Shown here one piece after another: positions 225 through 54,906 of a stretch of 64,000 bases of DNA. Each line of letters starts with the position of its first letter. Position 1 is the stretch's first letter. The translations under genes and the position numbers were made by a program. The DNA lies in NCBI GenBank assembly GCA_015058625.1, contig SVCA01000009.1:1-64000 (forward strand). The letters run 5' to 3'. The DNA comes from Pseudoselenomonas ruminantium (GTDB taxonomy: Bacteria > Bacillota > Negativicutes > Selenomonadales > Selenomonadaceae). The notes beneath the pieces are model-generated. The model had not been told where the DNA came from. It did not search any database and saw only the letters and a list, made by a program, of their open reading frames with translations.

Positions 225-481
225 GTTCGTGGTAAAGGTATCCCGTTCATACGAAGTTAGGGGTGAACGGGGAGTGCTTTTTCTGTTTTCCGCTAAACGC
301 CCCCCTCGAAAAAGAGAGATATCCAGTTACCTGCGCCGGGCAGGCCAACGGCGCTGCTTTCAGCGTGTTTGCTTAGCAGGTTTCTTCTGGGTCCGGCCTT
401 CACTTCGTTCAGGCAGTCGCTCCTAACAGAAAAAGCACTCCCCATTCGCCCCAAGTTACGGATTAGACTATCGCCACGAAC
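225..481 (+). repeat. Palindromic element A (family of covarying-arm elements)
   Basis: The arms at 225-287 and 425-481 are inverted repeats of about 60 bases. The inner 25-30 bases (around GGGGAGTGCTTTTTCTGTT) are nearly perfect and the outer part is less so. The 137-base interior contains GTTACCTGCGCCGGGCA (about 327-343) and a GGCAGTCGCTCC block just before the right arm. Both blocks recur in elements B, D and E. It contains no coding signal. An outer inverted repeat (about 204-228 with 787-812) encloses this element and element B. Confidence 0.8.
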
Positions 482-565
482 TCGTCTCTCCCGTAACAAG
501 AACATCGATGTACTTGTTGCTTATCATCGAGGAAAAATACATTTTATGCGGACGCCGCTTAGGGC

Positions 566-751
566 GGAGGTGGTGATGCGTTTCGCCGTGGAACGACTGT
601 CCGAACGCAGTGAGGACTGGCCCACAAACGGTATAAACTAAACACTGATATGAACATACGCGCCGCCGGTCTTGCCCGGCGCAGGTAACAAAAAAACCAT
701 AAGTTTTCTTGTGGGTCATTCAGTGCAACGGCGAAAAGTATTACCACCTCC
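566..751 (-). repeat. Palindromic element B (same family, opposite orientation to A)
   Basis: The arms at 566-589 and 728-751 (GGAGGTGGTGATGCGTTTCG and its partner) form a 24-base inverted repeat with a few mismatches, mostly G-T type. Read on the minus strand, the interior has the same GTTACCTGCGCCGGGCA core and the same GGACAGTCGTTCC pre-arm block as element A. The arm sequences themselves differ from A. It is non-coding. Confidence 0.8.
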
Positions 752-823
752 ACCCAAATTGAGCTGTAACAAAAATATTTCAGCAAGAACTAACCAACAA
801 ACTGCAATTTAATCTACGCAAAA

Positions 824-902
824 GCCCGGTGGCTGATAATGCTTTTCCGTCGCGTTAGGCAAGCCTGCATAAGCAGAGGAAAAGTATTATCAGTCACCGG
901 GC
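824..902. repeat. Palindromic element C (short form)
   Basis: The 25-base arms at 824-848 and 878-902 (GCCCGGTGGCTGATAATGCT... and its complement) enclose only 29 bases. Three differences between the arms leave pairing possible. AATCTACGCA at 811-820 and again at 929-938 flanks the element as a direct repeat, which could be a target duplication. It looks like a core-deleted member of the A/B/D/E family. Confidence 0.7.
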
Positions 903-952
903 GTCTTAGCACCACGATGTAAACCAACAATCTACGCAATACGTAGCTTCTT

Positions 953-1660
953 TTATTTCACCCGTATAACCCCCGGCTGCACAATCACCCATTTCCCCTG
1001 CCGTAGTGTGAAATGCGCAGGCAGTTTCACCTGTACCTGCTTAAAGCTGCCGGTTTCATAATTAGAGGCAAATGTTTCCTTCATGCCTCCTTTGTGATGC
1101 AATTCTTCGTTATACTCAATCAGCGGATTCGGCACCACCGCAAAATCATCCGGCTCGCCCGTCACATTCCAGGCCCAGTACCTGCTGCTCTCCACATTGT
1201 CCACCGCAGTGTATGCCAGCGCTTTCCCATCCTCCGCTTTCTCCGATTCTACGCAGACGAGCAACTGCACCTTATTATTGCGTACGAAGTTTTCACAGGC
1301 TTCTGCCGCCTTGGGGATGTTCATACTGTTGGCCAGATTATTGTAATCATCCACAAACCCCTGCCAGACTTCCGGCTTAACATTCCCTGCTATAGCAGCG
1401 CCCGCTGCCTTATCCATCGCCGGTTTTATATCCGCATTACCCGGCATTGCATCTTTCGGCAGCCTGTCCTGCAAGACCTTTATATCGCGCTGCAAAATCT
1501 TTACATCGCGTTCCAATTCTTCTACACGGGCAATTTTTCCCCGGGTACTTCTAGTAAGGGAATAATTATAGGCAATGCCCACCAGTGCTACCATGCTAAT
1601 GGCGCCCACAAAAATCAGCAATATATGCGCTGCCATAGGCGGAAACAACGCCGCTTCCAT
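953..1660 (-). CDS. Unknown membrane-anchored protein with coiled coil
   Basis: The protein has 235 residues. Residues 12-32 form one hydrophobic segment (ILLIFVGAISMVALVGIAY) that could be a signal anchor. Residues 40-68 form a short heptad-rich coiled coil (VEELERDVKILQRDIKVLQD). The C-terminal 140 residues are soluble and mixed alpha/beta, with no motif I recognise. The start is supported by an AAGGAAG ribosome site 8 bases upstream. It lies 28 bases downstream of the gene at 1689-2414, which is also a single-pass membrane protein with a coiled coil, so the two are probably co-transcribed and may act together at the inner membrane. The function is unknown. Confidence 0.7.
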   Translation of the reverse strand: MEAALFPPMAAHILLIFVGAISMVALVGIAYNYSLTRSTRGKIARVEELERDVKILQRDIKVLQDRLPKDAMPGNADIKPAMDKAAGAAIAGNVKPEVWQGFVDDYNNLANSMNIPKAAEACENFVRNNKVQLLVCVESEKAEDGKALAYTAVDNVESSRYWAWNVTGEPDDFAVVPNPLIEYNEELHHKGGMKETFASNYETGSFKQVQVKLPAHFTLRQGKWVIVQPGVIRVK

Positions 1661-1688
1661 ACAAACACTTCCTTCTGGTCAAACATTA

Positions 1689-2414
1689 TCAGGATGTCTT
1701 TTTCTTGCCGTTCAGGATATCACAGAGTTCCAGCATGTTCTTGATGCGCTGGGCTTCTGTGGCCGACAGCATCCGGTCATCATTTGAGCCGCCGGACACC
1801 CCAAGCATCAGGATTTTCCCGGCCAGCTGGTCACCCACTTCGCGCATGCCCTTCAAGGTTTCTGCATCCGCTACCTGATCGCACCATTCCATAATGCCGC
1901 TGTTGGTATTCGACGTCACCACGTTGCCGCTGGCCTTCACCTGAAAAATATCTTCTTCGCTGGTCTGCAGGCCGACCCCCTTAAAATTCATCGGCTTTTT
2001 CCCCCGATGACGCAGGATTACGTGAATAACCGCCGTCCCGCCGCCATCCTGAACAATATACGGCTGAATGAAAATTCCATCCTCTACGGGGTCTTCATAA
2101 CGATAATAGGTGGAGCCGTCCATTTCTTTGCCCTTCAGCATATCTGCCGTCAAGCCACGGATAACCTGATCTGGCTCCTCGGCCCGCCCGGTGCGTTTAT
2201 CAATCAGCGCCTGTTTGCGCCGTGCCTTTTCTTTCAGCTTCGCTTCCTTGGCTTCCTTAGCATCAATCTCTGCCTGTTTTGCTGCATCTTTCCGGTCCTG
2301 CTCCGCCTGAACAATAGCCCGGGTCTGATCGTACTGGATGGCTGCGTAATAACCGCCCACTCCTGCTACGGCAATGACCAGCACCACCAGAAAAAAATAT
2401 TTCAACTTCGCCAT
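1689..2414 (-). CDS. Unknown membrane-anchored protein with charged coiled coil
   Basis: The protein has 241 residues. I chose the ATG at 2414 because AAGGGAGTG sits 7 bases upstream; a longer frame to 2447 adds 11 residues without a better site. Residues 4-25 are a hydrophobic anchor. Residues 35-75 are a very charged Lys/Glu/Ala helix, likely coiled coil. The remaining 165 residues form a globular domain with no recognised motif. The composition suggests an envelope protein with its C-terminal domain outside the cytoplasm. It is the first gene of a pair with 953-1660. The terminator at 2504-2533 separates both from the upstream amylase gene. Confidence 0.7.
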   Translation of the reverse strand: MAKLKYFFLVVLVIAVAGVGGYYAAIQYDQTRAIVQAEQDRKDAAKQAEIDAKEAKEAKLKEKARRKQALIDKRTGRAEEPDQVIRGLTADMLKGKEMDGSTYYRYEDPVEDGIFIQPYIVQDGGGTAVIHVILRHRGKKPMNFKGVGLQTSEEDIFQVKASGNVVTSNTNSGIMEWCDQVADAETLKGMREVGDQLAGKILMLGVSGGSNDDRMLSATEAQRIKNMLELCDILNGKKKTS

Positions 2415-2503
2415 AACAGACACTCCCTTCCCTGTGCAAAGTGACACTTTTCATTGTAGTTATACGCCCCGAATACAGAAATTTCCTGCAAAATATAGAA
2501 AAA

Positions 2504-2533
2504 ACTGAGACTATGAATAAACATAGTCTCAGT
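2504..2533 (-). terminator. Rho-independent terminator after the secreted amylase gene
   Basis: A perfect 12-base stem, ACTGAGACTATG, has a 6-base loop. On the minus strand it is followed by a run of six T. It lies 21 bases after the stop of the amylase gene at 2555. Confidence 0.85.
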
Positions 2534-2554
2534 AAGGGGATGTAAAGGGATTAT

Positions 2555-5332
2555 TTATTTTACCAGCATTAACCCCTGGTTAGGGTTCAAATGAAGCTTA
2601 ATACGCCCCTCGGACACCATTGCCGCCTGACCTGTAAGCTGGTCTGTAAGCACAGTCCCATCAGCGGCGAAGGCTGCCGGCAGTTCCACGTCCGTGTCTT
2701 TGCCACGATTTAAAACAATCACCGCAGCTTCACCTTTATCATTGGTCCTGGCAAAAGCATAAACATCACCTTTTGCCAGCAGCGTCTCTACATCACCATG
2801 AGCGAAAAGTTGCTTATGCTGCTGCCGCACAGCAATAACCTGCCGATAGAATTCCACCAGGTCCTTGTCCTCCCGCCCCCAAGGGTAAGTGCGGCGACAA
2901 TCCGGATCTGCACTGCCATAGACACCGGCTTCATCTCCATAATAAATGGTGGGCATGCCGGGATACCCCATCAGGAACATGGCCGCCAATTTCAAGCGAG
3001 CTTTTCCCAAACGGTAATTAAAGTCCTGTCTGGTCGCCTGCGCCACATTCTCCTGACCGCCGCCGAATTTATAAATTGCACGGACAGTATCATGAGAATC
3101 AACGATATTCATGAGATTATAGAGCGCTTCCTTCGGATAATTCTGACGCAATACCGTCAGCTCATCATCACAAGCTTCTGCCTTGCCCTGATTCAGGAAC
3201 AAATCCCCAACAGCAAAGGAAAGCTTATAGTTCATCACCGAGTCAAACTGATCCCCCGTCAGGAACTGAGAACCATCCTGCCAGATTTCGCCTAAAAGCA
3301 GAGGTTCTTCACCTGCTTTGGTGCGAATGGATTTTACGTCCTTGCGCACATTGGCCCAGAATCCCGGTGGGACTTCCTTGGCCACATCAAGACGCCAGCC
3401 GGATAAACCATCATCAAACCACTTCATGATGACACCCTTCTGCCCGTTACGCCCCCGCAGCAGATAATCACCCAAATCGGATACCTGTGTCCCGGCTTCA
3501 CTGCCGGGATAATCCGCATCACGGAATGGCGTCAGGCTGTCAAAGCCCTGCCAATCATGATAGGCATACTTCGCCCCCATGCTGTCCTTCGTCTTTTCAT
3601 TACGGATTTCAAACCAGTTTTCCCAATGCCACGGCGAGAATACCTGACCTTCGGCTTCCAGCTGTTTCTTTGCCTCAGCCTTAGCCGCCTCAAGCTTCAT
3701 ATGCTTATCATTCATCAAATCATAGATGCGTGACCAATATTCATAAGCGCCAACCGTCTTGTACTTGCTATAACGGTCAAAATAGATGCTGTCATCTCCC
3801 ACATGATTGAACACACCATCCATAATCAAATGCATACCGCGTTTCTGCATTTCAGCCGCCAAAAACTTCAATTCCGGCAATTTCCCTAAGATGGGGTCGA
3901 TATTGCCATAGTCTACGGCATCATAGCGGTGATTCGAGCAGGCAGCCGACAACGGATTGACATAGATTGCCGTAATACCCAGATTTTGCAAGTAATCGAG
4001 TTTCTGGGTTATTCCGGCAATATCGCCACCAAAAAAGTCATTGCATTCCCAGTTGTCTCCATCTGCCTGCGGTGACTTGCTGGCATTGGCCGGCAAATCC
4101 TGCCATGCACGATGCTGAATGGGCTGATTGCCTCTGGCCGTACTGCGGGCATTATCATTTGACGGATCGCCGTTAAAGAACCGATCTGGGAAAATCTGAT
4201 AGGTCACAGCTTCTTTCGCCCAATCGGGGGTATGAAAATCCGCACTATACACCGTGAGCTGGAATGGTTTAGCTCCTCTGAGCTTCAAAATCCCCGTATG
4301 CCCTGGCTTATCATCATCACCGTATTCCTTGGTATCGTCCAACACGAATTTATAGCCGTAGATACCATTTTCCTGTGGACGCAGGGTTACTTCCCAATAA
4401 TCGCGCCCATCGCGGCTTTCCTTCAGGGCCAACGGATATTCCGTTTTTGTCCCGGCGGCAAAATCCGGGTTATACTCGTCACCACCACTGGCGGTAATCT
4501 TCGCCTTGTAGAGCACGGCCTTGACACTTGACACTTCGTCCTTGCCCACCGCCAGCCGCAGGGTCACAGGCGATCCCGCCTTGACGGCTTCAAAAGGCAC
4601 ACGATATGCCTTACTCCAGGTGTCATGTTCCACCAGCTTATCAGAAATGCGTCCATCATCGGCAATCAGACGTTTTTCCCTGCCATCGTAATAGAAAGTC
4701 ACGGCTCCGTCTTTTTTGATATTCACCGTCTGGGTCAGTGGCTTTTGCCCCTTCTGCGTAACTTTGACTTCATATTTGCCAGCTTTCAAATCCATGGTCT
4801 GCTGATAGAAACCGGCCAGCTGCAAATCCTGCATAGTGCCGTCCTGCTGCGTGCCGAAGCTGCCGCTGATTTTCGGCAGGCTGGCACTATCCAGCATCTT
4901 GTAGCTCGTGCTGTCGGCAATGGCATGGGTCTTATCGTTGTAATAGAAGGTAACCTTCTGAGCCTTGGGCAAAGTCAGCTGCACGTTTGCCCCGTCAAAA
5001 TTGCCGCCGAGGCCATAGTTTTCCGCCCAGCTGCCGCCCACGGCAATCTTGTAATAGTAAGTTCCGGCGGGCAAATCCACTGTCAGGCTGTAAAAACCAT
5101 TTCCTAAAGGCTTCATGCGCGTAGCCATATCTCCCGGATCCCAATCTTTCTGTGCACCGGCCCTGGATTGCAGGGAGCCAACCAGCACCACATCCCGGCT
5201 GGCGGCAGCAGCTTCTGCCTGCGCCGCCCCCATGACGGGAAGGTTTGCGGCAGGTGCCACCAGCGGAGCGGCCAGCAGTCCCAATGTCAAGGACAAGCCA
5301 ATAGCCCGTCCCAATATCTGCTTACGATTCAT
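2555..5332 (-). CDS. Secreted GH13 alpha-amylase/neopullulanase-type enzyme with N-terminal carbohydrate modules
   Basis: The protein has 925 residues. It hydrolyses alpha-1,4 (perhaps alpha-1,6) bonds of starch, pullulan or maltodextrins outside the cytoplasm. Residues 1-44 are a signal peptide, ending in an Ala-rich stretch. Two pullulanase-X25-like modules follow (about 47-140 and 150-225), then a beta-sandwich domain (about 240-365) and the GH13 barrel. The catalytic regions are visible: DGVFNH (505-510), GWRLDVAKE with nucleophile D649, LLGEIW with acid E682, and VDSHD with D748. The start is ATG at 5332 after an AAGGGGG site. Only 12 bases separate it from the SLH-porin gene upstream, so the two form one transcript and presumably one starch-uptake unit in the outer membrane and periplasm. 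The exact specificity cannot be read from the sequence. Confidence 0.93.
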   Translation of the reverse strand: MNRKQILGRAIGLSLTLGLLAAPLVAPAANLPVMGAAQAEAAAASRDVVLVGSLQSRAGAQKDWDPGDMATRMKPLGNGFYSLTVDLPAGTYYYKIAVGGSWAENYGLGGNFDGANVQLTLPKAQKVTFYYNDKTHAIADSTSYKMLDSASLPKISGSFGTQQDGTMQDLQLAGFYQQTMDLKAGKYEVKVTQKGQKPLTQTVNIKKDGAVTFYYDGREKRLIADDGRISDKLVEHDTWSKAYRVPFEAVKAGSPVTLRLAVGKDEVSSVKAVLYKAKITASGGDEYNPDFAAGTKTEYPLALKESRDGRDYWEVTLRPQENGIYGYKFVLDDTKEYGDDDKPGHTGILKLRGAKPFQLTVYSADFHTPDWAKEAVTYQIFPDRFFNGDPSNDNARSTARGNQPIQHRAWQDLPANASKSPQADGDNWECNDFFGGDIAGITQKLDYLQNLGITAIYVNPLSAACSNHRYDAVDYGNIDPILGKLPELKFLAAEMQKRGMHLIMDGVFNHVGDDSIYFDRYSKYKTVGAYEYWSRIYDLMNDKHMKLEAAKAEAKKQLEAEGQVFSPWHWENWFEIRNEKTKDSMGAKYAYHDWQGFDSLTPFRDADYPGSEAGTQVSDLGDYLLRGRNGQKGVIMKWFDDGLSGWRLDVAKEVPPGFWANVRKDVKSIRTKAGEEPLLLGEIWQDGSQFLTGDQFDSVMNYKLSFAVGDLFLNQGKAEACDDELTVLRQNYPKEALYNLMNIVDSHDTVRAIYKFGGGQENVAQATRQDFNYRLGKARLKLAAMFLMGYPGMPTIYYGDEAGVYGSADPDCRRTYPWGREDKDLVEFYRQVIAVRQQHKQLFAHGDVETLLAKGDVYAFARTNDKGEAAVIVLNRGKDTDVELPAAFAADGTVLTDQLTGQAAMVSEGRIKLHLNPNQGLMLVK

Positions 5333-5344
5333 CTTAACGCCCCC

Positions 5345-6874
5345 TTAGAAATGGAAGTCCAGCCAGCTGCGCAGAATGCGGCGGTTATGGGTGGTGGCTC
5401 CGGCCCAGCTGTTATTGGTATTCTCGGTCAGGTTGGCATACATGGTTTCCCATTCCACATTTTTCCAGGGAACGCATTTGAAGCCATAGTACCAGCCACG
5501 CACGCCGTTAATGCCGGTCGGCTCGCGGGTAGCCCATTCATCATCGTGGCCCAGGTCAGCCAGGCAGCCCAGGTCCACCCATTTTGCATAGAGGCCATAA
5601 CTGCCGACCTTGTTTAAGTCCGTGCCCTTGTACTCAACCTTCACCGCCAAATCCCGGTTGGCATGGCCGTTCTGTGCCCAGTTATTGTACGGTTTATTAA
5701 CATCGGCATCGGATTTGACAATAGAACCGGTAATAGACAAATCCTTAAAGGGCTTTACCTTCAAATCAAGACCAAAGAAATTCCTGGCCCCGGAGTAAAA
5801 GCCACTTTTCAAATCGTTTTCATCCAAGGTGTGCTGGATAACCCGGGCATAGGCCACATTGGCATCCACATATTTGCCTAACGGCCCCCAAAAATCCAAG
5901 ACGGCAGCAACAGGTGCACGGTTGGTGTAATGCCTGGTATCCGTAACCTCATAAATCCCATCAGCATTCTTTTTTACGGTTTCTACCGTCTCGCTCCAGT
6001 CAGCAGAGGGCTTGAAATACTGGGCACTGAACCACCAGCCCTTACCTTTGGGTATGGCATGATAAGTGGCCACACCATCTACCTGCCCGCCCAAAAGCAA
6101 ATTCTGCATACCGATACCGTTCCACTTGCGGCCGATATTGGTGTACCAGTCATGATTCTTGCCCAAGGCCAGTTCCACCCAGATGTTGGAGATGGAGCCG
6201 TTATGGTTGGCATCATTATTGGCATTGTCCCGGTCTTCGCCGGAAACCGCCCGCTCAACAATATATGGTTGATTATTTGCGCTCTTATCATTCCTTACCA
6301 CTTTGGTCGTCAGATATTCCCTGTCCCGGAAGCGGGCATTCTTTTCAATGGTGAACCGCGCCGTCGCATAGGGATTGACCTTGAGGGAACCTTCCAGATC
6401 CATATAGAAGCGGTTGTTGTAATCGCCGCCGTAGCCATCATTCTTCAGGCCGTTGTCATTGCCCATCTGTACCCTGGCCAGGCCATGAAGCTGGAAACGG
6501 TCAGCCTTTTCCTTCAACTCCTGAATATCCTTGTCATGAGCAGCCACGCGCTTTTTCAGCGTGTCCAGTTCACCTGCATATTCTGCCGCCAGCTTGTCCA
6601 GCACAGCTTTATCCCCAAAGCTGCCGCCGCCCTTTTGCATGGCCTTGGCCACAATCGAAGCCATTTCATAACGGCTCATGGCGCGGCTCCCCTGGAAGGT
6701 GCTGTCCCCCATGCCCTCGATAATGCCTTCCCTGGCCAGATAGTCCAAAGCCTCATAGCTCCAGTGATCCTTGGGTACATCGGTGAAACTATCTGCGCTG
6801 GCGGCCAAGGTATGACCCATGGCCCCCACAGTAACACCAGCTAAGATTGCGGCAACTTTTTTGCTCATTCTCAT
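5345..6874 (-). CDS. SLH-domain outer-membrane porin (OmpM/Mep45 type)
   Basis: The protein has about 509 residues. It is a major outer-membrane protein of Negativicutes that forms a pore and tethers the outer membrane to peptidoglycan. A signal peptide (about 1-27) is followed by one SLH domain (FTDVPKDHWSYEALDYLA), a coiled coil around residues 95-125 (LDTLKKRVAAHDKDIQELK), and then a long beta-barrel region of alternating hydrophobic strands ending in a C-terminal Phe. I prefer the ATG at 6874, which has AAAGGGAG 8 bases upstream; a TTG at 6880 and an ATG at 6868 are alternatives. It is co-transcribed with the amylase downstream (12-base gap), so it may admit maltodextrins. A second paralogue lies at 30420-31700. 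Confidence 0.92.
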   Translation of the reverse strand: MRMSKKVAAILAGVTVGAMGHTLAASADSFTDVPKDHWSYEALDYLAREGIIEGMGDSTFQGSRAMSRYEMASIVAKAMQKGGGSFGDKAVLDKLAAEYAGELDTLKKRVAAHDKDIQELKEKADRFQLHGLARVQMGNDNGLKNDGYGGDYNNRFYMDLEGSLKVNPYATARFTIEKNARFRDREYLTTKVVRNDKSANNQPYIVERAVSGEDRDNANNDANHNGSISNIWVELALGKNHDWYTNIGRKWNGIGMQNLLLGGQVDGVATYHAIPKGKGWWFSAQYFKPSADWSETVETVKKNADGIYEVTDTRHYTNRAPVAAVLDFWGPLGKYVDANVAYARVIQHTLDENDLKSGFYSGARNFFGLDLKVKPFKDLSITGSIVKSDADVNKPYNNWAQNGHANRDLAVKVEYKGTDLNKVGSYGLYAKWVDLGCLADLGHDDEWATREPTGINGVRGWYYGFKCVPWKNVEWETMYANLTENTNNSWAGATTHNRRILRSWLDFHF

Positions 6875-6932
6875 AACCAAAGCTCCCTTTCTCTAATATT
6901 AACATATAATTATATATTGATATGTATGTATA

Positions 6933-6955: not shown

Positions 6956-6974
6956 TTATTCACTTGTCCGCTTT

Positions 6975-9439: not shown

Positions 9440-9454
9440 ATTGTTCTATCTCCA

Positions 9455-15097: not shown

Positions 15098-15133
15098 TGA
15101 AATTACCAACTCCTTGAATTTGATGCAAAAGGC

Positions 15134-15330
15134 GCGGCGAGAGGGGGATAGAACCACGCTGTGCTGGGACAACCTGCTAAAAAAATTTTTTGTCTCCCAA
15201 TTAATCCTTTGGCGGGAGTTAAACGCGCTAACGCTTGAACGAAACTCCCGCCAAAGGACGGGGCGACAAAAAATTTTTTCTTAACGCAGAACGTCCACGC
15301 TCCGCTTAGGTTCTATCCCCCTCTCTCCGC
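15134..15330. repeat. Palindromic element F, triple nested inverted repeat
   Basis: Three nested arms are visible. The outer arms are 15134-15155 with 15309-15330 (GAGGGGGATAGAACC and its complement). The middle arms are 15172-15197 with 15259-15285 (AAAAAATTTTTTGTC). The inner arms are 15206-15220 with 15243-15257 (CCTTTGGCGGGAGTT, perfect 15). The outer arm has the same G-run-then-ATA pattern as element E. The element lies just upstream of ung on the minus strand and is non-coding. Confidence 0.8.
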
Positions 15331-15383
15331 TCACTGCCGTCTTCGATAGCATATTGCTCATCATCCCTGCGCCACTAGAAACG

Positions 15384-15491: not shown

Positions 15492-15720
15492 ACCACCAGC
15501 CCCGCAAAGCAAGTACATACCCAAACGACCACGCAGTCCCAAAGCATGCCACTTCGCTGTAACAGGGGCGGGGGCTGGCTGTTTTTCGCCCCGGCGCGAC
15601 TGTTTTGCGCAGCAAAACTGGCCTGCAACGCCAACCAACAATGCACCAAGATGTAAACCAGCCGCAACCCATAAAGGTGCGGCGCACTCCCTAAAGTGCC
15701 AACCTAACCATGCATGTCAT

Positions 15721-16716
15721 TTAGCGGCGGGGCGAAAAATAGTCAGCCCCCGCCCGCCATAACCTGACAAATGAAAGCCCACTCCGAGCCTCCCTTGCCA
15801 CCTCGAAAAACTCTTCGTGAGCCGGAAAGAAAGTATCCGCCGCGAACCTGCCCGCAACTTCCGTCAGCCAAATCTCCTTTGCATAGGGCATCAGCAAGGC
15901 GTACACCTCCCCGCCCCCTATGCAGATAAACTTCCTGTCCGGCTCTTCCCTTCGCAGCTCCCCCAGCATCGTCCAAAGTTCAGCCAGATTGCGGCATATC
16001 CGTACATCATCGCGCACAAGGTTTCGGGATAACACGATATTTACGCGCCCCGGCAATGGATTCCCATCCGGCAGGGATTCCAAAGTCTTGCGCCCCATAA
16101 TCACTACCTGCCCGAGCGTTTCCTGCCGAAAATGCTGCATATCCTCCGCATGATGCACCAAGAGCTTGCCCTGCCGTCCAATGCCCATCTGTTCATCCAC
16201 GCAGGCAATCATCGACAAAGGGTACGGCTCACAAAGCTCTGCGGCAGGATGGATTTCCTGCTGCTGAATCGTTTCTTCCCTGCACCAATCTGCCACCGTG
16301 CGCCCCCGCACTACTAAATCCGGCGCAATATCCCGCAGGGGCAGCAATACAAAGGCCCGCTCCGTCAGATAGGGATGGGGCAGTTTTAATTCTTCCGTAT
16401 CCGAGACAACATCTTCTGCCCAAAGCAAATCAATATCAATGGTGCGGGCCCCCCAATGTTCATGGCGCACCCGCCCCAGAGCAATTTCAATCTGCTGGGT
16501 CTTATGCAAAAATTTCAGCGGCGACAGTTCCGTTTCCACCATCGCCGCCGTATTGATAAATGCTGGCTGCTCCAGATTGCCCCAAGGGGCCGTTTCATAA
16601 AAAGGAGCCACCGCTTTTAAGGCCGTTTGGGGCAGACAGGCGATTTGCCGCAGGGCTTCCCGCAGGGTCTCCCCGCGATTGCCTAAATTGGCCCCCAAAC
16701 TCAGATAAATTTTCAT
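15721..16716 (-). CDS. folK: FolK-dihydrofolate reductase fusion
   Basis: The protein has 331 residues. Residues about 1-150 are 6-hydroxymethyl-7,8-dihydropterin pyrophosphokinase, with SLGANLGNR at the start and RTIDIDLLW as the metal/ATP motif. Residues about 168-325 are dihydrofolate reductase, with SMIACVDEQMGIGRQGKL, HHAEDMQHF (carboxylate Asp), VVIMGRKTLESLP and IGGGEVYALLMPYA. The fused protein would carry out the first pterin activation step and the final reduction of folate synthesis. The Trp usual in the DHFR LPW motif is Val here. The ATG at 16716 lies 1 base after the folB stop. It is the last gene of the folE-folP-folB-folK/DHFR operon. The fusion is unusual; folB-folK and folK-folP fusions are better known. 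Confidence 0.9.
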   Translation of the reverse strand: MKIYLSLGANLGNRGETLREALRQIACLPQTALKAVAPFYETAPWGNLEQPAFINTAAMVETELSPLKFLHKTQQIEIALGRVRHEHWGARTIDIDLLWAEDVVSDTEELKLPHPYLTERAFVLLPLRDIAPDLVVRGRTVADWCREETIQQQEIHPAAELCEPYPLSMIACVDEQMGIGRQGKLLVHHAEDMQHFRQETLGQVVIMGRKTLESLPDGNPLPGRVNIVLSRNLVRDDVRICRNLAELWTMLGELRREEPDRKFICIGGGEVYALLMPYAKEIWLTEVAGRFAADTFFPAHEEFFEVAREARSGLSFVRLWRAGADYFSPRR

Positions 16717-16717
16717 A

Positions 16718-17080
16718 TCAGCTCCGCGAACGCACGACACTAATTGAAGCGTCCGTGAATCTTCCCGGCAGAGGCGCATGGGGCTTATGTACTGTTACCC
16801 GCACTTTTTCCACCAAACGGAAATCTTTCAAAACGGTCTGGGCGATTTCTTCGCCAACCACTTCAATGAGCTTGCGCGGTTCGCCTTCCACGATTTTCTT
16901 CACTACGTCGTAAACTTCGGCATAATTCACCGTGGCCGTCAATTTATCGGATTTGCCTGCTTCCTTCAAATCCAGATACATGGAAATATCCACGATAAAT
17001 TCCTGCCCCATCTGCCGTTCACTAGGCAAGCAGCCATGATAACCATAGAAATTCAAGCCCGTCAGTTTTATCTTATCCAT
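16718..17080 (-). CDS. folB: Dihydroneopterin aldolase
   Basis: The protein has 120 residues, the normal length. It cleaves dihydroneopterin to 6-hydroxymethyl-dihydropterin and glycolaldehyde. The N-terminal GLNFYGYHGCLPSER contains the family YHG motif. The catalytic Glu/Lys region follows as NYAEVYDVV and the C-terminal VHKPHAPLPG carries the conserved Lys-Pro. The ATG at 17080 follows GGGAGTG and overlaps the folP stop by 8 bases, indicating translational coupling. Confidence 0.95.
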   Translation of the reverse strand: MDKIKLTGLNFYGYHGCLPSERQMGQEFIVDISMYLDLKEAGKSDKLTATVNYAEVYDVVKKIVEGEPRKLIEVVGEEIAQTVLKDFRLVEKVRVTVHKPHAPLPGRFTDASISVVRSRS

Positions 17081-47686: not shown

Positions 47687-47714
47687 TAAAAGCCTTCCTT
47701 TCTAAGTACCTTTA

Positions 47715-48224: not shown

Positions 48225-48248
48225 TCGAAACCAAAACTCCCTAATCGT

Positions 48249-49202: not shown

Positions 49203-49953
49203 GGGCAATCACCTCTTTCGCAAGCTTCATATAAACCTCGGCTCCCTTGGATTTCTTGTCGTAATAAAGAATTGGCTGGCCAAAGGACGGCGCTTCGCTA
49301 AGGCGTACCGTGCGAGGAATCATGGTCTTGTACACCGCAGTATCGAAGCTGTTGCGGACTTCATCCACTACCTGCTCCGCCAGTTTCGTGCGGGAGTCGT
49401 ACATGGTCATAACCACACCCTCTACGGCCAATTCAGCATTGAGGTTGTTGCGCACCAGCTCAATGGTTTTCATCAGCTGGGCCACACCTTCCAAAGCGTA
49501 GAATTCGCACTGAATGGGCATGATTACAGAATCTGCTGCTGCCAGCGAATTAAGGGTCAACAATCCCAAGGAGGGCGGGCAGTCAATCAGGATGTAATCG
49601 TAATTATCCCGCACCGCATCCAGAGCTTTTTTCAGCCGCGTTTCCCGGGAAATGGCAGCCACCAGCTCCACTTCTGCTCCTGCCAGTTCAATATTAGCGG
49701 GCAGTATATCCACCTTAAATTCCGTCTTCTGAATAACTTCGCTGACGGGCACATTGTCAATCAATACATGATAAATGGTCTTATCCAATGCGGATTTTTC
49801 CACGCCAAAACCACTGCTGGCATTCCCCTGCGGGTCACAATCCACCAGCAGGACTTTTTTCTTCTTGGCCGCTATACAGGCAGCCAAATTTACCGACGTG
49901 GTGGTTTTGCCCACGCCGCCCTTTTGATTGGCAACTGCGATAATCTTTGCCAA
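49195..49953 (-). CDS. parA: Chromosome partitioning ATPase ParA (Soj)
   Basis: The protein has 252 residues. It is a Walker-type ATPase that moves or regulates ParB-parS complexes and, in Bacillus, controls DnaA. The deviant Walker A is KGGVGKTTT (11-19), the A' motif is LLVDCDPQGNASSG, and Walker B is ILIDCPPSLGLLT. The start codon is TTG at 49953, with GTGGTGA upstream. A perfect parS lies 172 bases upstream. The gidA-gidB genes that often precede this pair are not adjacent here. Confidence 0.95.
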   Translation of the reverse strand: MAKIIAVANQKGGVGKTTTSVNLAACIAAKKKKVLLVDCDPQGNASSGFGVEKSALDKTIYHVLIDNVPVSEVIQKTEFKVDILPANIELAGAEVELVAAISRETRLKKALDAVRDNYDYILIDCPPSLGLLTLNSLAAADSVIMPIQCEFYALEGVAQLMKTIELVRNNLNAELAVEGVVMTMYDSRTKLAEQVVDEVRNSFDTAVYKTMIPRTVRLSEAPSFGQPILYYDKKSKGAEVYMKLAKEVIARG

Positions 49954-50125
49954 AACTTTTCACCACTTTCTTTCACTGTGCGTTAAGTTACAGTAATGCT
50001 TGTATATTTCCCTTAAAATAAGTATAATTGTTACATTAAAGGTTTTATTTTGGACAGTTGTAATTATTACCCCATCCGAAAATAAGCATACCTATATAAT
50101 AATATGAAATGCAAAAAAATGCTAT

Positions 50126-50141
50126 TGTTTCACGTGAAACA
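50126..50141. promoter_or_regulatory. parS site, perfect, upstream of parA
   Basis: TGTTTCACGTGAAACA is an exact match in the divergent gap between parA and the MetH-activation gene. ParB bound here could autoregulate the par operon. Confidence 0.92.
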
Positions 50142-50165
50142 GTAAAAAAAATTTAAGGTGGTGAG

Positions 50166-50843
50166 ATGATGCCCGTTTATAATGCGCCCCTGCTCTCCAT
50201 AGATGCCAAGGAAACCCGCCGTTATGCGGGACTGCAAAAAGCCGTTGATTTTGACGAAGAAAAAATCCTCGCCGCCTGCGAAGATGCCCGGCTTATGGCC
50301 GCCCCCAAAGGAATATGGGAAGTCTATGATTATGACTGTGAGAATCAGGTCATTAAGTCTGCCCCGCCCTGTACCATCCATGGGAAAAAAATAGGCCAGC
50401 ATCTGGCTGGCTGTGAAAAGATTATCGCCCTGTCGGCAACCGTTGGCGAAGAAGTCGAAGAAGAAGTGACCCGCCGCTTCAATGCCGGTGAATACAGCAC
50501 CGCGGTCATCATGGATGCAGCTGCTACCGCCGCTGTGGAACAGATTGCCGATGGCATGGAAAAAGCCCTGACTCCCAAAATGGCCGCCCAAGGCTTTGCC
50601 ATGAAGTGGCGGTTCAGCCCCGGTTATGGGGACTGGCCCTTGGAACAGCAGCCGGAGTTAATCCGTCTGGCCCATGCAGATAAAATTGGTGTCAGCCTCA
50701 GTTCCTCCCTGATGCTCATGCCCCGCAAGAGCATTACAGCGATTATCGGCCTCTACCGCAAACAGGCAGAAACTGCCCCAAGCCACAGTCCTCATGGTTG
50801 TGCAATGTGCAATAAGACCGACTGTCCCTCCCGTAAACAATAA
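50166..50843 (+). CDS. Stand-alone cobalamin-dependent methionine synthase activation-domain protein
   Basis: The protein has 225 residues. It resembles the C-terminal activation domain of MetH, which binds S-adenosylmethionine for reductive repair of oxidised cobalamin. RFSPGYGDWPLEQQPEL is the conserved RxxPGY signature, followed by LGVSLSSSLMLMPRKSIT-like sequence. The last 15 residues carry a Cys cluster (CAMCNKTDC), an addition seen in clostridial stand-alone versions. AAGGTGGTG precedes the ATG. It lies 24 bases upstream of the methionine synthase gene, whose product lacks this domain. Confidence 0.88.
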   Translation: MMPVYNAPLLSIDAKETRRYAGLQKAVDFDEEKILAACEDARLMAAPKGIWEVYDYDCENQVIKSAPPCTIHGKKIGQHLAGCEKIIALSATVGEEVEEEVTRRFNAGEYSTAVIMDAAATAAVEQIADGMEKALTPKMAAQGFAMKWRFSPGYGDWPLEQQPELIRLAHADKIGVSLSSSLMLMPRKSITAIIGLYRKQAETAPSHSPHGCAMCNKTDCPSRKQ

Positions 50844-50867
50844 ATCTCCAGAACAGGAGCTGAATGT

Positions 50868-53246
50868 ATGTGTAAAATCGAAATCTTTGATGGTGCCATG
50901 GGCACCATGCTGCAAGCCGGTGGCCTTCAGCCCGGAGCCTGCCCGGAACTCATGAATATCGAAAATCCGGATGTGGTAAAGAACATCCACAATGCCTATA
51001 TAGAAGCGGGCGCCACCATTATCGAAACCAATACCTTTGGTGCCAGCCCCTTAAAGCTCGAACACTATGGCTTAACAGACCGCATGGCAGAGCTCAACAC
51101 GGCCGCCGTAAAAATCGCTAAGGCAGCCGCCAAGGGGCAGGCTAAAGTTGCCGGCTCCATGGGCCCCACAGGCCGCTTTATCGAACCATTGGGCGATTTA
51201 TCCTTTGACGAAGCCTATCAGAACTTCTACGACCAAGCAAAAGCCCTTGCGGAAGCCGGTGCCGATTTCCTCATTATCGAAACCTGTATCGACATTCAGG
51301 AAATGCGCGCCGCACTTCTGGCCGCCAAGGATGCCTGTGACATTCCGGTTATCTGTCAGCTCTCCTACAGCGAGGACGGGCGCACCGTAACGGGTACCGA
51401 CCCGCAATCGGCCGCGATTCTGCTCGACGCCATGGGCGCGGATATCATCGGTGTCAACTGTTCCCTTGGCCCGGAAGAACTCGTGCCCATCGTCAAAACG
51501 CTGGCCGAAAACTGTACCTGCCCCATCAGCGTTCTGCCCAACGCCGGTATGCCCTATCTGAAAGACGGACATACCGTATTTCCCATGGGGCCGGAGGACT
51601 TCGGTAAATGGGGCGTAAAACTCTTGGAAGCCGGTGCAAGCTATCTGGGCGGCTGCTGCGGTACCACACCGGAACATATCCGCGAGCTTGCCAAAGCCGT
51701 AAAGGATATGCCCCTGCCAGAACGCAGACTGCCCGCGAAAAAACTCTGGCTGACCAGCCGCAGCAAATCCGTCTGCATTGATAAGAGCCTGCCCACCCGC
51801 CTCATTGGCGAGCGCATCAATCCTACAGGCCGCAAGAAGCTGGCCGCCGAAATCCGGGACGGTTCTCTTTTGGGTGTCAAAAAAGAAGCCGTCAATCAGG
51901 TCAAAGCAGGCGCCCATCTGCTCGATGTAAATATGGGCGTTGGCGGCATTGACCAGGCTGCCGCTATGAAAAAGGCCGTCACTGAAATCGCCCAGCTCAC
52001 GGATGCTCCGCTGGCTATTGATACCAGTGATGCAGAAGCCTTGGAAGCAGGCCTCAAAGCCTATCCCGGCCGTGCGCTTATCAACTCCGTAAGCTATGAG
52101 CCGGAGCGCATCGCCCAGTTCCTGCCCTTGGCAAAAAAATACGGTGCCGCTATTCTCTGCCTGCCTATTACGCCGGACGGCGTACCTAAAACCGCCGAAG
52201 AACGCATCGAAGTCATGCGTCAAATCATTGCCGCCGCTAAGAATGCGGGCTTGGATGATGGCGACTTCCTGCTGGACGCTCTGGTTATGACCGTATCTGC
52301 TGATCAGAACGCCTGTTATGAAGTGCTGATTACCCTGCAGATGTATCGGGAAAGATTCGGCTATCCGACCACCATGGGCCTGTCCAATATCTCCTTTGGC
52401 CTGCCCAACCGCCCGCTGATTAACAGCACCTTCTTTGCCATGTGTCTGGCGGCAGGTCTGGATGCCCCCATTATGAATCCTTATGACGAGTCCATGCAAA
52501 AGGCCCTGATGGCCAGCGCCGCCCTGCTAGGTGATGACCCCAACGGCCTTGCCTACAGCAAGAATGAAGCCAATCTGGCCGTTCCGAAGGCAGCCGCCAC
52601 CGCCAAGGTCACGGAACTTACCCCGCTGGAAGCAATCAAACAGGCAGTCATTGACGGGGAAAAGGATGAAATCCCCCTGCTGGTGGAAAACGCGCTCAAA
52701 GCCGGTATGGCTGCCAATACCATCACCGAACAGGCCCTGACCGCCGCCATGACAGATATCGGCGTGGATTTTGGCGCAGGCCGCATGTTCCTGCCCCAGG
52801 TATTGCTATCCGCTGAAACCATGCGAGCCGCCTTCAACAAAATCAAGGAATTGACCCCGGCCAGCACCGCCCCAGAACAGGGCACAGTCGTTATCGCCAC
52901 CGTCAAAGGTGATGTTCACGATTTGGGCAAGAACATCACGGGCGCATTGCTTGCCAACAGTGGCTTCAAACTTATCGATTTGGGCAAGGATGTAGACAGC
53001 ACCGAAATCGTCAGAGCAGCAATCGAAAACAACGCCGATATTGTGGGCCTCTGCGCACTGATGACCACGACCATGGTGCAGATTGACAAGGTTATTGAAG
53101 ACCTCAAAGAAGCAGGCTGCAATGCCAAAGTCATGGTCGGCGGTGCCGCCGTCACCCAGGAATATGCCGACAGCGCCGGAGCTGATGCCTATGCTCCGGA
53201 TGGCGTAAAGGCTGTGGAATTGGCTAAAGAATTAGTACAAAAATAA
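50868..53246 (+). CDS. metH: Cobalamin-dependent methionine synthase without activation domain
   Basis: The protein has 792 residues, against about 1200 for Escherichia coli MetH. It transfers a methyl group from methyltetrahydrofolate to homocysteine. The homocysteine domain (about 1-285) has the zinc cysteines in GVNCS and GGCCGTTPEHI. The pterin-binding domain (about 305-565) starts at GERINPTGRKK. The cap and B12-binding domain (about 590-792) has the cobalt-ligand motif DVHDLGKN. The activation domain is supplied by the upstream gene. No SAM or cobalamin riboswitch was seen upstream. Confidence 0.92.
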   Translation: MCKIEIFDGAMGTMLQAGGLQPGACPELMNIENPDVVKNIHNAYIEAGATIIETNTFGASPLKLEHYGLTDRMAELNTAAVKIAKAAAKGQAKVAGSMGPTGRFIEPLGDLSFDEAYQNFYDQAKALAEAGADFLIIETCIDIQEMRAALLAAKDACDIPVICQLSYSEDGRTVTGTDPQSAAILLDAMGADIIGVNCSLGPEELVPIVKTLAENCTCPISVLPNAGMPYLKDGHTVFPMGPEDFGKWGVKLLEAGASYLGGCCGTTPEHIRELAKAVKDMPLPERRLPAKKLWLTSRSKSVCIDKSLPTRLIGERINPTGRKKLAAEIRDGSLLGVKKEAVNQVKAGAHLLDVNMGVGGIDQAAAMKKAVTEIAQLTDAPLAIDTSDAEALEAGLKAYPGRALINSVSYEPERIAQFLPLAKKYGAAILCLPITPDGVPKTAEERIEVMRQIIAAAKNAGLDDGDFLLDALVMTVSADQNACYEVLITLQMYRERFGYPTTMGLSNISFGLPNRPLINSTFFAMCLAAGLDAPIMNPYDESMQKALMASAALLGDDPNGLAYSKNEANLAVPKAAATAKVTELTPLEAIKQAVIDGEKDEIPLLVENALKAGMAANTITEQALTAAMTDIGVDFGAGRMFLPQVLLSAETMRAAFNKIKELTPASTAPEQGTVVIATVKGDVHDLGKNITGALLANSGFKLIDLGKDVDSTEIVRAAIENNADIVGLCALMTTTMVQIDKVIEDLKEAGCNAKVMVGGAAVTQEYADSAGADAYAPDGVKAVELAKELVQK

Positions 53247-53284
53247 AAAATTAGGATGTTGCAATAGCAACATCCTAATTTTTT
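53247..53284. terminator. Bidirectional terminator between metH and pfkA
   Basis: A perfect 14-base stem, AATTAGGATGTTGC, has a 4-base loop. T runs follow on both strands. It serves the convergent metH and pfkA genes. Confidence 0.92.
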
Positions 53285-53301
53285 GCATTTTATTCGTTTA
53301 A

Positions 53302-54264
53302 TCAGAACAATACCTTTGCCAGATGCAAGTATTCCGGGTCAAGCTGTTTCTTGTTGTTTACAGAGTCATGCAGGTCAATGGATACTACGCGGCCTTTGCT
53401 GAAGCCGAATACCACATCAGACAGACCGGAGATAAGCGCAAGTGCTGCCTGCTCGCCGAGCTGGCTGGCGCGCACACGGTCGATAACCGTCGGCGAACCG
53501 CCACGCTGAATGTGACCAAGAACCGTTACACGGGTATCGAGTTCCGTTTTCTTGGCAATGAAATCACCGATTTCCTGTGCATTTCCAGCACCTTCAGCAA
53601 CAACTACGAGGATATAGCGCTTGCCTTCTGCATAAGCATTCTTCATGTCATCGCAGAGTTTATCCAGATCATAGGGTTCTTCCGGCACGAGAATGTATTC
53701 AGCACCGCCGGAAATACCGGAAACAAGTGCCAGCCATCCCGAGCTGCGGCCCATTACTTCCATAACGATGACACGACGATGGGCCGAAGCCGTGTCACGT
53801 AACTTATTGATGGCATCAATGATGGTGTTGGCTGCCGTATCACAGCCAATCGTGTAGTCAGAACCCCAAACGTCATTGTCGATAGTGCCCGGCAAGCCTA
53901 CGATAGGAATGCCCGTTTCCTGAGACAGCAGGGAAGCACCGCGCAGGGAACCGTCACCACCGATAACGCAGAGGCCCTGAATCCCGCGGTCAACGAGATG
54001 CTGATAGCCGAGCATACGGCCTTCCGGCGTCTTCCAGCGTTTGCAGCGAGCCGTGCCGAGGAACGTGCCGCCACGCTGAATGATATCGCCTACGTCTTTG
54101 GATTCCATTTCAAACATATTTTCTTCGAGCAGACCATGATAACCATCACGGATGCCCCAAACTTTTACACCTTCATAGAGCGCCGTGCGCACAACAGCAC
54201 GGGCTGCCGCATTCATACCGGGGCTGTCGCCGCCGCTGGTCATGACTGCAATGCTTTTTAACAT
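53302..54264 (-). CDS. pfkA: 6-phosphofructokinase
   Basis: The protein has 320 residues from the ATG at 54264, the standard length. It phosphorylates fructose-6-phosphate with ATP. Signatures are TSGGDSPGMNAAAR near the start, CVIGGDGSLRGA (ATP site), GLPGTIDNDVWGSDYTIG with the catalytic Asp, EVMGRSSGWLAL, and LGHIQRGGSPT near residue 250. The Gly of GGDGS indicates the ATP-dependent rather than pyrophosphate-dependent group. It is transcribed alone. Confidence 0.95.
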   Translation of the reverse strand: MLKSIAVMTSGGDSPGMNAAARAVVRTALYEGVKVWGIRDGYHGLLEENMFEMESKDVGDIIQRGGTFLGTARCKRWKTPEGRMLGYQHLVDRGIQGLCVIGGDGSLRGASLLSQETGIPIVGLPGTIDNDVWGSDYTIGCDTAANTIIDAINKLRDTASAHRRVIVMEVMGRSSGWLALVSGISGGAEYILVPEEPYDLDKLCDDMKNAYAEGKRYILVVVAEGAGNAQEIGDFIAKKTELDTRVTVLGHIQRGGSPTVIDRVRASQLGEQAALALISGLSDVVFGFSKGRVVSIDLHDSVNNKKQLDPEYLHLAKVLF

Positions 54265-54411
54265 AATCGAAGTTCCCCCTTGAATTATAAGCAATCTGCG
54301 GTCATTTTTGCTGGCCGCAGGAAAAAACAAACCTCACTAATCCCTATCATACCATAAAAAGAAGAAATCTAACAGAAATTTTTTCAAACTACCATCAAGT
54401 TAATGCAGTCA

Positions 54412-54586
54412 GGGGACGGGGACATATTTTGTGGGCATCGCTAAATGGCCGGCTACAGCAATACGGTATTTCTAGTTACCTGCTCCGGTTACCACGTCGC
54501 GGCTTTCAAATCTATGTCCAGATACGATTTTTCACCGGCCAGCCTTACGGCAATCGCTCACGCCCACAAAATATGTCCCCGTCCCC
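54412..54586 (+). repeat. Palindromic element D
   Basis: Perfect 25-base arms at 54412-54436 and 54562-54586 (GGGGACGGGGACATATTTTG...) enclose 125 bases. The interior has GTTACCTGCTCCGGTTACC (54476-54494), CGCGGCTTTCA and a GCAATCGCTC pre-arm block, all shared with elements A, B and E. It is an inverted paralogue of element E, with about 70 percent identity by eye over most of its length. Confidence 0.88.
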
Positions 54587-54629
54587 TTCGTCCAGTTTGT
54601 AACGGCAATGAAAAAATTTCTTCACAGCA

Positions 54630-54668
54630 ACAGTGCGCTCCTGACCAAAAAGTATCCCCCTTTCGCCA
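54630..54668 (+). repeat. Half-element G (right arm only)
   Basis: The sequence around GCGCTCCTGACCAAAAAGTA and its following CCCCCTTTCGCC aligns well with the pre-arm block and right arm of element A. No complementary left arm was found nearby. It lies between elements D and E and looks like a truncated copy. Confidence 0.55.
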
Positions 54669-54730
54669 AGATACGAAGTACCTTCGAAATCAACGCTGAA
54701 AAAACTGCCTACGAGCCACAAGTGCAACGA

Positions 54731-54906
54731 GGGGCGAGGGGATATGTTTTGCGGGCAGGAGCGACTGCCGTCAGGCTGGCCGGAAGTCGAAAATTTCTGG
54801 ACACCACGCTGAAAGCCGCGACGTGGTAACCGGAGCATTTAACTAAAAAGCTGGACTTTACGAACCGGTCATTTAGCGACGCCCGCAAAACATACCCCCT
54901 CGCCCT
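54731..54906 (-). repeat. Palindromic element E (inverted paralogue of D)
   Basis: The arms at 54731-54756 and 54881-54906 (26 bases, two differences) read GGGCGAGGGGGTATGTTTTG... on the minus strand. The interior on that strand has GTTAAATGCTCCGGTTACC, CGCGGCTTTCAGCG and GGCAGTCGCTCC, matching D. The arms differ from those of D at several paired positions, yet each copy remains self-complementary. Confidence 0.88.

Follow-up and report, generated by a model that had tools for sequence, protein, structure and literature searches.

Intergenic palindromic elements of Selenomonas are found inverted or replaced by other copies when sister species are compared site by site

Introduction

Integron attC sites are palindromes of variable sequence and conserved structure that are used as folded single-stranded DNA. 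Among non-coding repeats, bcr1–bcr18 of the Bacillus cereus group are described in passages of one source (PMC6542083) as 100–400 bp long and restricted to that one bacterial group; according to the same passages, bcr1 has tens of copies, the repeats are thought to be mobile, and a mechanism resembling site-specific recombination has been suggested. REP palindromes have stems of 5–13 bp in the sections of PMC3733652 that deal with them.

The window analysed here is a stretch of 64,000 nucleotides (positions 1–64,000 of contig SVCA01000009.1) from a member of the Selenomonas ruminantium group. A first-pass annotation, made from the letters alone, had singled out an unrecognised family of intergenic palindromes in this window, with a conserved core and covarying arms. 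The Selenomonas element, of which these rumen bacteria have dozens of copies between their genes, is probably a mobile palindrome of an unusual kind that was not met in the literature searched.

Results

Composite elements and their ends

Elements A and B, listed as separate in the first-pass annotation, were found to be two head-to-head halves of a single 607-bp composite, and D and E make up a second one (Table 1). The elements are near-perfect palindromes, each composite has one module per strand, and a composite matched its own reverse complement at ~60% identity, compared to 85–90% between copies in the same orientation. Terminal inverted repeats of ~14–17 nt bound the 607-bp pair, with AAATTGCAGTTTAT / AAACTGCAATTT as the termini of composite 1. 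Two alignments set these ends, one with 28 copies from the same genome and the other with 27 copies drawn from 14 species, and the ends AAATTGCAGTTTG.../...CAAACTGCAATTT were recognisable in most of the 28 copies and across the 14 species (left end uncovered in 3 of the 27 rows). In the cross-species alignment, inspected outside its centre, the composite interior dropped to ~66% identity between species, while the terminal repeats could still be recognised in most copies. Within the own genome, the mean column identity over 28 copies was 0.78–0.82 in the terminal repeats versus 0.92–0.98 in the inner arms, and several copies had worn terminal repeats and an indistinct left end, a pattern unlike that predicted for an active enzyme dependent on terminal inverted repeats. 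The arms had been described as pairing within each element while differing in sequence; this applies between module types, but members of the composite family have conserved inner arms. The argument from the identical arms expected of a MITE is thus weak: it is the outer terminal repeats that form the ends of the composite, and in every aligned carrier species most copies have them in recognisable form.

Table 1. Positions in the window of the composites, their terminal repeats and their modules
Feature	Position	Strand	Remarks
Composite element 1 (A+B)	205..812	+	Two inverted modules between terminal inverted repeats; 607 bp
Composite 1, left terminal inverted repeat AAATTGCAGTTTAT	205..218	+	1 mismatch to query AAATTGCAGTTTGT; recurs across species
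Module A with outer stem AGTTCGTGG / CCACGAACT	224..482	+	Predicted fold
Module A, covariance-model match (P1–P4)	263..449	+	130 bits, E 2.2e-28
Module B, covariance-model match	564..753	-	Inverted relative to A; 119 bits, E 6e-26
Composite 1, right terminal inverted repeat	797..810	-	Exact AAATTGCAGTTTGT on minus strand
Diverged single module	15567..15754	-	78 bits, E 1.5e-16; nhmmer E 1.3e-6
Composite element 2 (D+E)	54411..54905	.	Sole full-length match in its own genome is itself
Module D, left half of composite 2	54411..54587	+	146 bits, E 3.7e-32
Module E, right half of composite 2	54731..54906	-	163 bits, E 5.4e-36

The module

The unit common to all members is a ~174-nt module with a conserved core and four helices that covary between module types, found singly and as head-to-head pairs. 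A long outer stem P1 (~25 bp), an inner stem P2 and two small hairpins, P3 and P4, are arranged around the core. The covariance model was built from 28 module types, including A, D and E, and it bore out the homology of A, B, D and E, although the nhmmer and covariance-model E values in Table 1 are circular for the members used in training. The module at 15.6 kb in the window, a second genus (G049 and G072) and G015 stood outside the training set, and this untrained window member was matched at E 1.5e-16; after the five module matches, the next one in the window reached only E 1.1. The first-pass labels C, F and G were given without coordinates; the palindrome at 15567–15754 is a member, and another at 15126–15340 was unmatched by the model. 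The motifs proposed as shared are not found in every element: E reads GTTAAATGC instead of GTTACCTGC; GGCTTTC is exact in D and E only, A having TGCTTTC and B lacking it, and the block before the right arm, GGCAGTCGCTCC, is exact in A and E only.

The covariation noted at first pass exceeded all 500 shuffles and all slid controls and was strong in both alignments, A1 and A2. In P2–P4 both sides of a stem have changed and mismatched intermediates are nearly absent, the hairpins show a recurrent mid-stem mismatch zone, and the core nucleotides outside the stems are strongly conserved, in the second genus too.

Genomic context and distribution

The claim that all copies are intergenic held for composite 1, which is overlapped by no ORF of at least 100 aa, but E shares bases with a mechanical 100-aa ORF (54709–55011), and the final ~34 bases of ORF 15721–16779 lie within an arm of the 15.6-kb module. 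A coding element was rejected because the ORFs over the composites differ in start and end between copies.

The A half has 33 near-full copies in its own genome, itself included, the other 32 being 79–90% identical to it. The composite was present in 14 of 19 same-genus genomes (own included) and in none of 12 outsiders. In a search of phage and plasmid records, the S. ruminantium record pSR1 held a partial copy and the phage records gave no match. A core-pattern search of IMG/VR returned 11 stretches, all of them module-free (the best nhmmer match covered 33 positions, with E 5e-5 within the set), which we read as chance. The element had no Rfam match at E up to 10, and at E up to 1 the modules of ten further loci had none either, the listed matches falling outside the modules. 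Such a family was not met in the literature searched either, in agreement with its description as unrecognised.

Inversion and replacement between sister species

All comparisons of orientation and exchange were made between species, with one genome per species. Twenty-two sites with a copy in both the own genome (G000) and that of a sister species (G011) were compared, and at nine of them the cassette was inverted relative to its flanks (median flank identity 95.2%). Cassette identity was 78–91% for inverted cassettes (two over only ~310–350 bp, long variants) and 83–98% for uninverted ones. At 17 of the 22 sites, the cassette was as diverged as a random copy between flanks that were ~95% identical; G000 paralogues average 86.8% identity, and the replaced cassettes are therefore as far apart as random copies. 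None of the five cassettes with >93% identity was inverted, compared to 9 of the remaining 17, a borderline association between inversion and replacement (Fisher p 0.054). After removal of one cluster whose flanks are paralogous, 23 shared loci were left, and 11 of these showed mixed orientation across species.

Junctions were aligned for five inverted pairs. In four, the match extended in both flanks up to the terminal repeat and then failed, and in the fifth (L030) a single flank was alignable; at the aligned junctions, the breakpoints lie at the terminal repeats. Variant terminal repeats at L010, L022, L034 and L038 are common to both species, while the interior differs. The G011 cassettes at L317 and L315 best matched those at different G000 loci, L027 (93.3%) and L026 (93.6%), respectively, and the composite 2 locus in G011 has a left module of another type. 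The cassette at L032 is a mosaic, with 98–100% identity in the first four 60-base windows and 77–97% thereafter. Concerted evolution was rejected as the whole explanation because five loci, one of them mosaic, keep 93–98% identity with their orthologue.

No target-site duplication was visible by eye beside 28 copies, and the comparison between species yielded neither a clean empty site nor such a duplication because the intergenic sequence around the insertions is too different. A terminal-repeat scan of G000 and G011, in which part of the listed sites was fetched, turned up no longer element sharing these ends; of 10 loci fetched around these sites, seven were ordinary composites and three were not.

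Pairing in RNA or DNA

The first-pass annotation had left open a folded RNA or a cruciform. In 30 genomes of the same bacterial family, variable pairs of RNase P RNA comprised 39 G-U versus 8 A-C, whereas those of module helices P2–P4 on the core strand comprised 4 G-U versus 8 A-C (Fisher p 0.0016), and in 281 modules, many of them related copies, P2–P4 had 5 G-T versus 6 A-C. These counts speak against an RNA fold of the core strand, and of the two options a cruciform or single-stranded DNA fits better. When non-Watson–Crick pairs are pooled, A-C predominates on the core strand, equivalent to G-U on the minus strand (61 vs 29, p 0.001), and 25 of 34 such pairs in the arms of alignment A1 sit in columns 16–21; given this lean of the minus-strand arms to G-U, an RNA of that strand is conceivable though improbable. 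At 8 of 10 hand-grouped single-module loci, the core and the gene immediately upstream shared a strand, while composites showed no clear orientation preference relative to neighbouring genes (5 vs 8 in co-directional gaps). Replication strand was set aside by eye as the cause of module orientation, the G011 loci being mixed.

Discussion

Considering the results of the present study, the Selenomonas element is probably a mobile or exchangeable palindrome that acts at the DNA level, and we read it as a cassette moved by a putative enzyme or by palindrome breakage and repair, readings that, like the others considered below, are not mutually exclusive. We tentatively propose the following scenario, which as a whole we find plausible but hold with reserve: the non-coding, hairpin-forming DNA modules form cassettes that are exchanged by a putative trans-acting enzyme. 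Between species, the abundant 607-bp pair does behave as an exchangeable cassette: what lies between the terminal repeats of one chromosomal site is swapped for another copy in either orientation, with the flanks and the locus-specific repeat variants staying in place. A recombinase or transposase acting in trans would perform the exchange, guided by the terminal repeats, the folded DNA hairpins or both; the analysis yielded no candidate for it. That a single trans-acting enzyme flips and swaps dozens of dispersed invertible cassettes with common short inverted repeats and folded hairpins, in a genome-wide network of recombinase-mediated cassette exchange, seems unlikely.

A dedicated enzyme may not be required at all. 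Large palindromes are acted on by hairpin nucleases such as SbcCD, and quasi-palindrome correction keeps stems complementary without selection. The palindromes could break or stall replication and then be mended by gene conversion or template switching with other copies as donors; inversion mediated by the inverted repeats would be a by-product. This is possible though doubtful. The near-perfect palindromes, the conversion-like mosaic at L032, the two-sided changes in P2–P4, the terminal repeats not being the best conserved part and the missing enzyme candidate all fit it. However, conversion driven by homology should prefer copies in the same orientation (85–90% identity) to inverse ones (~60%), whereas inversion was seen in 9 of the 17 cassettes that had been replaced; the homology common to both ends is merely ~14–30 nt by eye; and the core nucleotides outside the stems are strongly conserved, even in the second genus. 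Conserved junction and loop nucleotides, together with strong covariation in A1 and A2, would suit a structured non-coding RNA or 3′-UTR element spread by amplification, with a covarying three-way junction selected as RNA, as would the single-module cores on the upstream gene's strand and the minus-strand lean to G-U. We consider this quite improbable, because the core strand lacks the G-U excess that the same analysis found in RNase P RNA, composites carry one module per strand, flip and show no clear orientation preference to genes, and Rfam gave no match.

Two classes of transposition were given less weight. An ordinary MITE of a DDE transposon since lost, its patterns reflecting old insertions, deletion and re-insertion, would account for terminal inverted repeats, partly worn in several copies, no conserved ORF, high copy number and taxon restriction. 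We give it little credence: no target-site duplication was seen by eye beside the 28 copies or in the comparison between species, and re-insertion would not let site-specific repeat variants persist while the interior changes or flips. Very little credence is due to REP/BIME-type elements mobilised by RAYT or another Y1 (IS200/IS605-like) transposase. Palindromic, mostly intergenic units, often in inverted pairs, are common to both, and the mid-stem mismatch zone recalls single-strand hairpin substrates. However, a RAYT/Y1 link was rejected because Y1_Tnp is absent from 6 of 14 composite-carrying genomes, including the own genome, and none of 30 fetched Y1 loci had a module or composite match; in addition, the stems of ~25 bp and units of 174–607 bp contrast with the REP stem lengths given in those sections of PMC3733652.

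Covariation is the usual sign of a functional RNA. Here the inner helices covary although G-U pairs are nearly absent from them, which points to DNA-level pairing, and other 'covarying' repeats can be tested simply by a count of G-U versus A-C. Since intergenic palindromes at shared sites of sister species differ in orientation as well as in content, palindrome recombination by a dedicated enzyme as against breakage and repair, and its effect on neighbouring genes, becomes testable.

Among known systems, the BCR repeats, as presented in the passages cited from PMC6542083, resemble the Selenomonas element in being group-restricted, non-coding, present (in the case of bcr1) in tens of copies and thought mobile; the latter is set apart by its head-to-head architecture between ~14-nt terminal repeats, its covarying helices and the inversion and replacement observed in place between species. 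REP/BIME elements with RAYT are likewise intergenic palindromes, single or as inverted pairs, in the portions of PMC2817692 and PMC3733652 relied on here, but the Selenomonas stems and cores are much longer, no linked Y1 gene was found at the 30 Y1 loci fetched, and no shared tag like the unpaired GTAG or CGTC of REPs was seen by eye in alignment A1. With MITEs, the element shares terminal inverted repeats, lack of coding capacity and high copy number; it differs in its in-place exchange, with no target-site duplication visible by eye and, among the sites fetched in G000 and G011, no autonomous partner found. With integron attC sites, which have R/L boxes and are recombined by an integron integrase, the Selenomonas modules would share palindromes of variable sequence and conserved structure, but the modules are dispersed and not in cassette arrays. 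Invertons and invertible promoters are segments between inverted repeats that occur in both orientations, as outlined in part of PMC11892184; in Selenomonas, both orientations at one site are seen between species only (9 of 22 sites, 11 of 23 loci). Known from this between-species comparison, the Selenomonas segments differ from invertons in being dispersed, related to one another and present in dozens per genome, with their contents exchanged as well.

Composite elements and their modules

The first-pass annotation had treated A and B as two repeat elements; their repetition was upheld but their separateness was not, as both are halves of one element, the unit 205–812 matching as one piece. 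Of the 35 loci inspected, most matched this composite in a single piece; three were longer forms, two had the A half only and two were cut by contig ends. The 2.86-Mb host genome (G000) contains 33 near-full matches to DNA 225–490, itself counted, two of which end at approximately 230 of the 266 bases. In alignments of copies, the composite begins with AAATTGCAGTTTG... and ends with ...CAAACTGCAATTT. Among 28 aligned copies, mean column identity was 0.92–0.98 in the inner arms, 0.78–0.82 in the terminal repeats, the left of which is worn or missing in several, and 0.43–0.57 in the flanks. Longer composites of approximately 740–880 bp with a partly duplicated middle were found at L011, L012, L018 and G016:C156:2688-3429, and one locus can carry the long form in one species and the normal form in another. 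L312 (G000:C7:388197) has the right end alone, about 40 nt, as a truncated remnant.

A second head-to-head pair consists of D and E. In the window, a covariance model with 28 module types as input identified five members, the next match having an E value of 1.1.

Module members found in the window
Feature	Position	Strand	Basis
Module	263–449	+	Covariance model
Module	564–753	-	Covariance model
Module	15567–15754	-	Covariance model
Module	54411–54587	+	Covariance model
Module	54731–54906	-	Covariance model

At the D/E locus, the left module is of a different type in the sister species G011 and in G007. A ZMP/ZTP riboswitch (54968–55044; 51 bits) lies directly downstream of module E, and in G007 a single module precedes the riboswitch at the corresponding place. 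The large nested palindrome at 15126–15340 (inner stem ACTCCCGCCAAAGGA) gives no match to the module model and is either a repeat of another kind or a palindrome without further copies. Six sites in the window (26486, 30387, 36354, 39713, 41211 and 50126; three exact, three with one mismatch) match TGTTTCACGTGAAACA, the parS consensus; a location of the window close to the replication origin is possible. At 58679–58789, only 111 bases match the group II intron family D1D4-3 (58.7 bits), possibly a shortened intron fragment.

Structure and covariation

The 281 distinct near-full modules formed 29 clusters at 80% identity, bearing out across module types the shared core with differing arms described in the annotation. 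One cluster representative with N was removed, leaving 28 types in alignment A1. The expected covariation was also found: the four-helix structure (outer stem P1, inner stem P2 and hairpins P3 and P4) paired 82.0% of A1 cells, whereas shuffles reached 68.4% and slid controls no more than 48.8%; doubly changed cells numbered 160, versus 54 in shuffles. P1 was undercounted because the right arm is two columns off in 11 of the 28 rows; row-by-row arm alignment gave Watson–Crick pairs at 628 of 684 positions. Four P2 pairs had 35 double changes and zero broken cells; columns 47–148 and 52–143, assigned to P2, fail in 21 and 8 of the 28 rows, respectively, and two P4 pairs fail in 9 rows. Under the same model, 27 modules from a second genus and G015 (25 + 2), aligned by fitting to the covariance model itself, had 88.3% of cells paired and 266 double changes versus 84 in shuffles; their pair types, one of five measures, were reached by 14 of 500 shuffles.

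Pairing in RNA or DNA

Evolving RNA helices pass through G–U intermediates. In RNase P RNA, the control, for which a search of 41 family genomes gave loci to align in 30, variable pairs from folding both strands included 39 G–T and 8 A–C, or 45 and 13 when pairs of either fold were admitted. The variable pairs of module P2–P4 in A1 and A2 (the second-genus and G015 alignment) included 4 G–T and 8 A–C (p = 0.0016 versus RNase P). When all P2–P4 pairs were counted in the 281 modules, many of which are related copies, omitting the poorly paired columns 47–148, 52–143, 87–105, 88–104 and 154–166, there were 5 G–T and 6 A–C (p = 0.017 versus RNase P), together with 3,496 Watson–Crick cells and 56 other mismatches. 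The arms in A2 had 14 G–T versus 19 A–C among pairs passing a 60% filter, and 24 versus 19 unfiltered. Those in A1 had 11 versus 34, with 25 of the 34 A–C in columns 16–21 and 7 G–T versus 9 A–C elsewhere. Thus, nothing in the G–T and A–C counts points to selection at the RNA level on the core strand.

A mid-stem A–C mismatch, equivalent to G–T on the opposite strand, recurs in the arms. Because the core strand lacks a G–U excess and this mismatch is recurrent, we read module pairing as acting at the DNA level. The annotation had proposed a folded RNA or a cruciform; measured against RNase P, the G–U counts favour DNA pairing and lend no support to RNA on the core strand. Two caveats apply to the DNA reading: pooled minus-strand counts lean to G–U (61:29), and quasi-palindrome correction, which could maintain stem complementarity without selection, could explain the complementary stems.

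Distribution

In named genomes, the core pattern had at least 80 matches, all 80 listed carrying a Selenomonas title and nearly all being S. ruminantium. The composite was present in 14 of 19 same-genus genomes, host included, and in 0 of 12 others, and by covariance model 18 of the 22 genus genomes have modules, one marginally (E = 9e-4). With stricter filters than this genus count, a class-wide sample had modules in 8 of 150 genomes and 2 of 70 genera, both in the same family; modules of the second genus also occur in tandem (L393, L396 and L397). The S. ruminantium record pSR1 (L233, NC_002139.1) contains a partial composite near its start. Two radical SAM genes, a hypothetical gene and a HAMP-domain gene make up the four annotated in this 4.7-kb record, which may represent circular chromosomal DNA and not a plasmid. 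No description of such a Selenomonas element was found among the matches listed in openly licensed PMC literature.

Insertion sites

Target-site duplications, which the annotation named together with conserved arms as marking a simple MITE, were not found at the insertion sites compared, nor were clean empty sites at those compared across species. Two sites carry the composite in both G000 and G011; no composite was found in the remaining regions inspected, 17 of the 19 at one site and 13 of the 15 at the other, with two weak matches set aside. Other palindromes occupy the same place as composites elsewhere: beside a gene presumably pth-like, G000 has a terminator and a composite, G011 a different palindrome of approximately 120 bp, and G003, G016 and G031 a short hairpin.

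By eye, a terminator-like hairpin (AAAAGTCCGCTGAC...GTCAGCGGACTTTT or AAAGTGCGTTGAC...) lies within approximately 15 bases of nine composites (L014, L016, L022, L023, L025, L026, L027, L033 and L035), in many cases with another small hairpin after it; such hairpins are a possible target preference. Another repeated hairpin (AAAGCCCGGTGGCTGATAATGCTTTTCC..., window 820–905) adjoins the right terminal repeat, likewise at L015 and L032, and its L015 form has many matches of approximately 75% in related genomes.

Inversion and replacement between species

The flanks of G000 and G011 are approximately 95% identical. We compared the 22 sites with a compared copy in both, excluding loci empty, partial or otherwise uncompared in G011 (e.g., L014, L021, L026 and L027), and 9 of the 22 cassettes, the stretches between terminal repeats, were inverted relative to their flanks. 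Five keep 93–98% identity, none inverted; the remaining 17, at 78–91%, are about as similar as random paralogues (mean 86.8%) and include all the inverted ones (0/5 versus 9/17; Fisher p = 0.054). Junctions were aligned for eleven pairs, five of them inverted; in four of these five, both flanks match as far as the terminal repeat, and in the other, L030, one flank is unrelated. Among uninverted pairs, L009 and L024 have no visible break, and the left flank of L013 is unalignable in the junction view. At L010, L022, L034 and L038, unusual terminal-repeat variants are common to both species and the interior differs.

Across all compared species, both orientations occur at 11 of 23 shared loci, a tally omitting one cluster with paralogous flanks; L037, uniform here with the G011 copy not included, is inverted in the 22-site comparison. 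The 30 copies with simple ORF calls lie in 11 convergent, 5 divergent and 13 co-directional gaps (1 undecided), with orientations of 5 and 8 in the co-directional gaps, and had no clear orientation preference relative to neighbouring genes.

Discussion

The composites have a defined anatomy and distribution, and their modules covary without a G–U excess on the core strand. Between species, they are inverted in place and replaced, with breakpoints at the terminal repeats where junctions were aligned. We propose a putative enzyme that would act on either the terminal repeats or the folded hairpins. The chief alternative dispenses with an enzyme and invokes palindrome breakage followed by ectopic repair, and the worn terminal repeats count against the enzyme model. 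We nevertheless slightly prefer the enzyme model over enzyme-free repair, because replacement is inverted about as often as it is direct, unlike what repair through long homology would be expected to yield.
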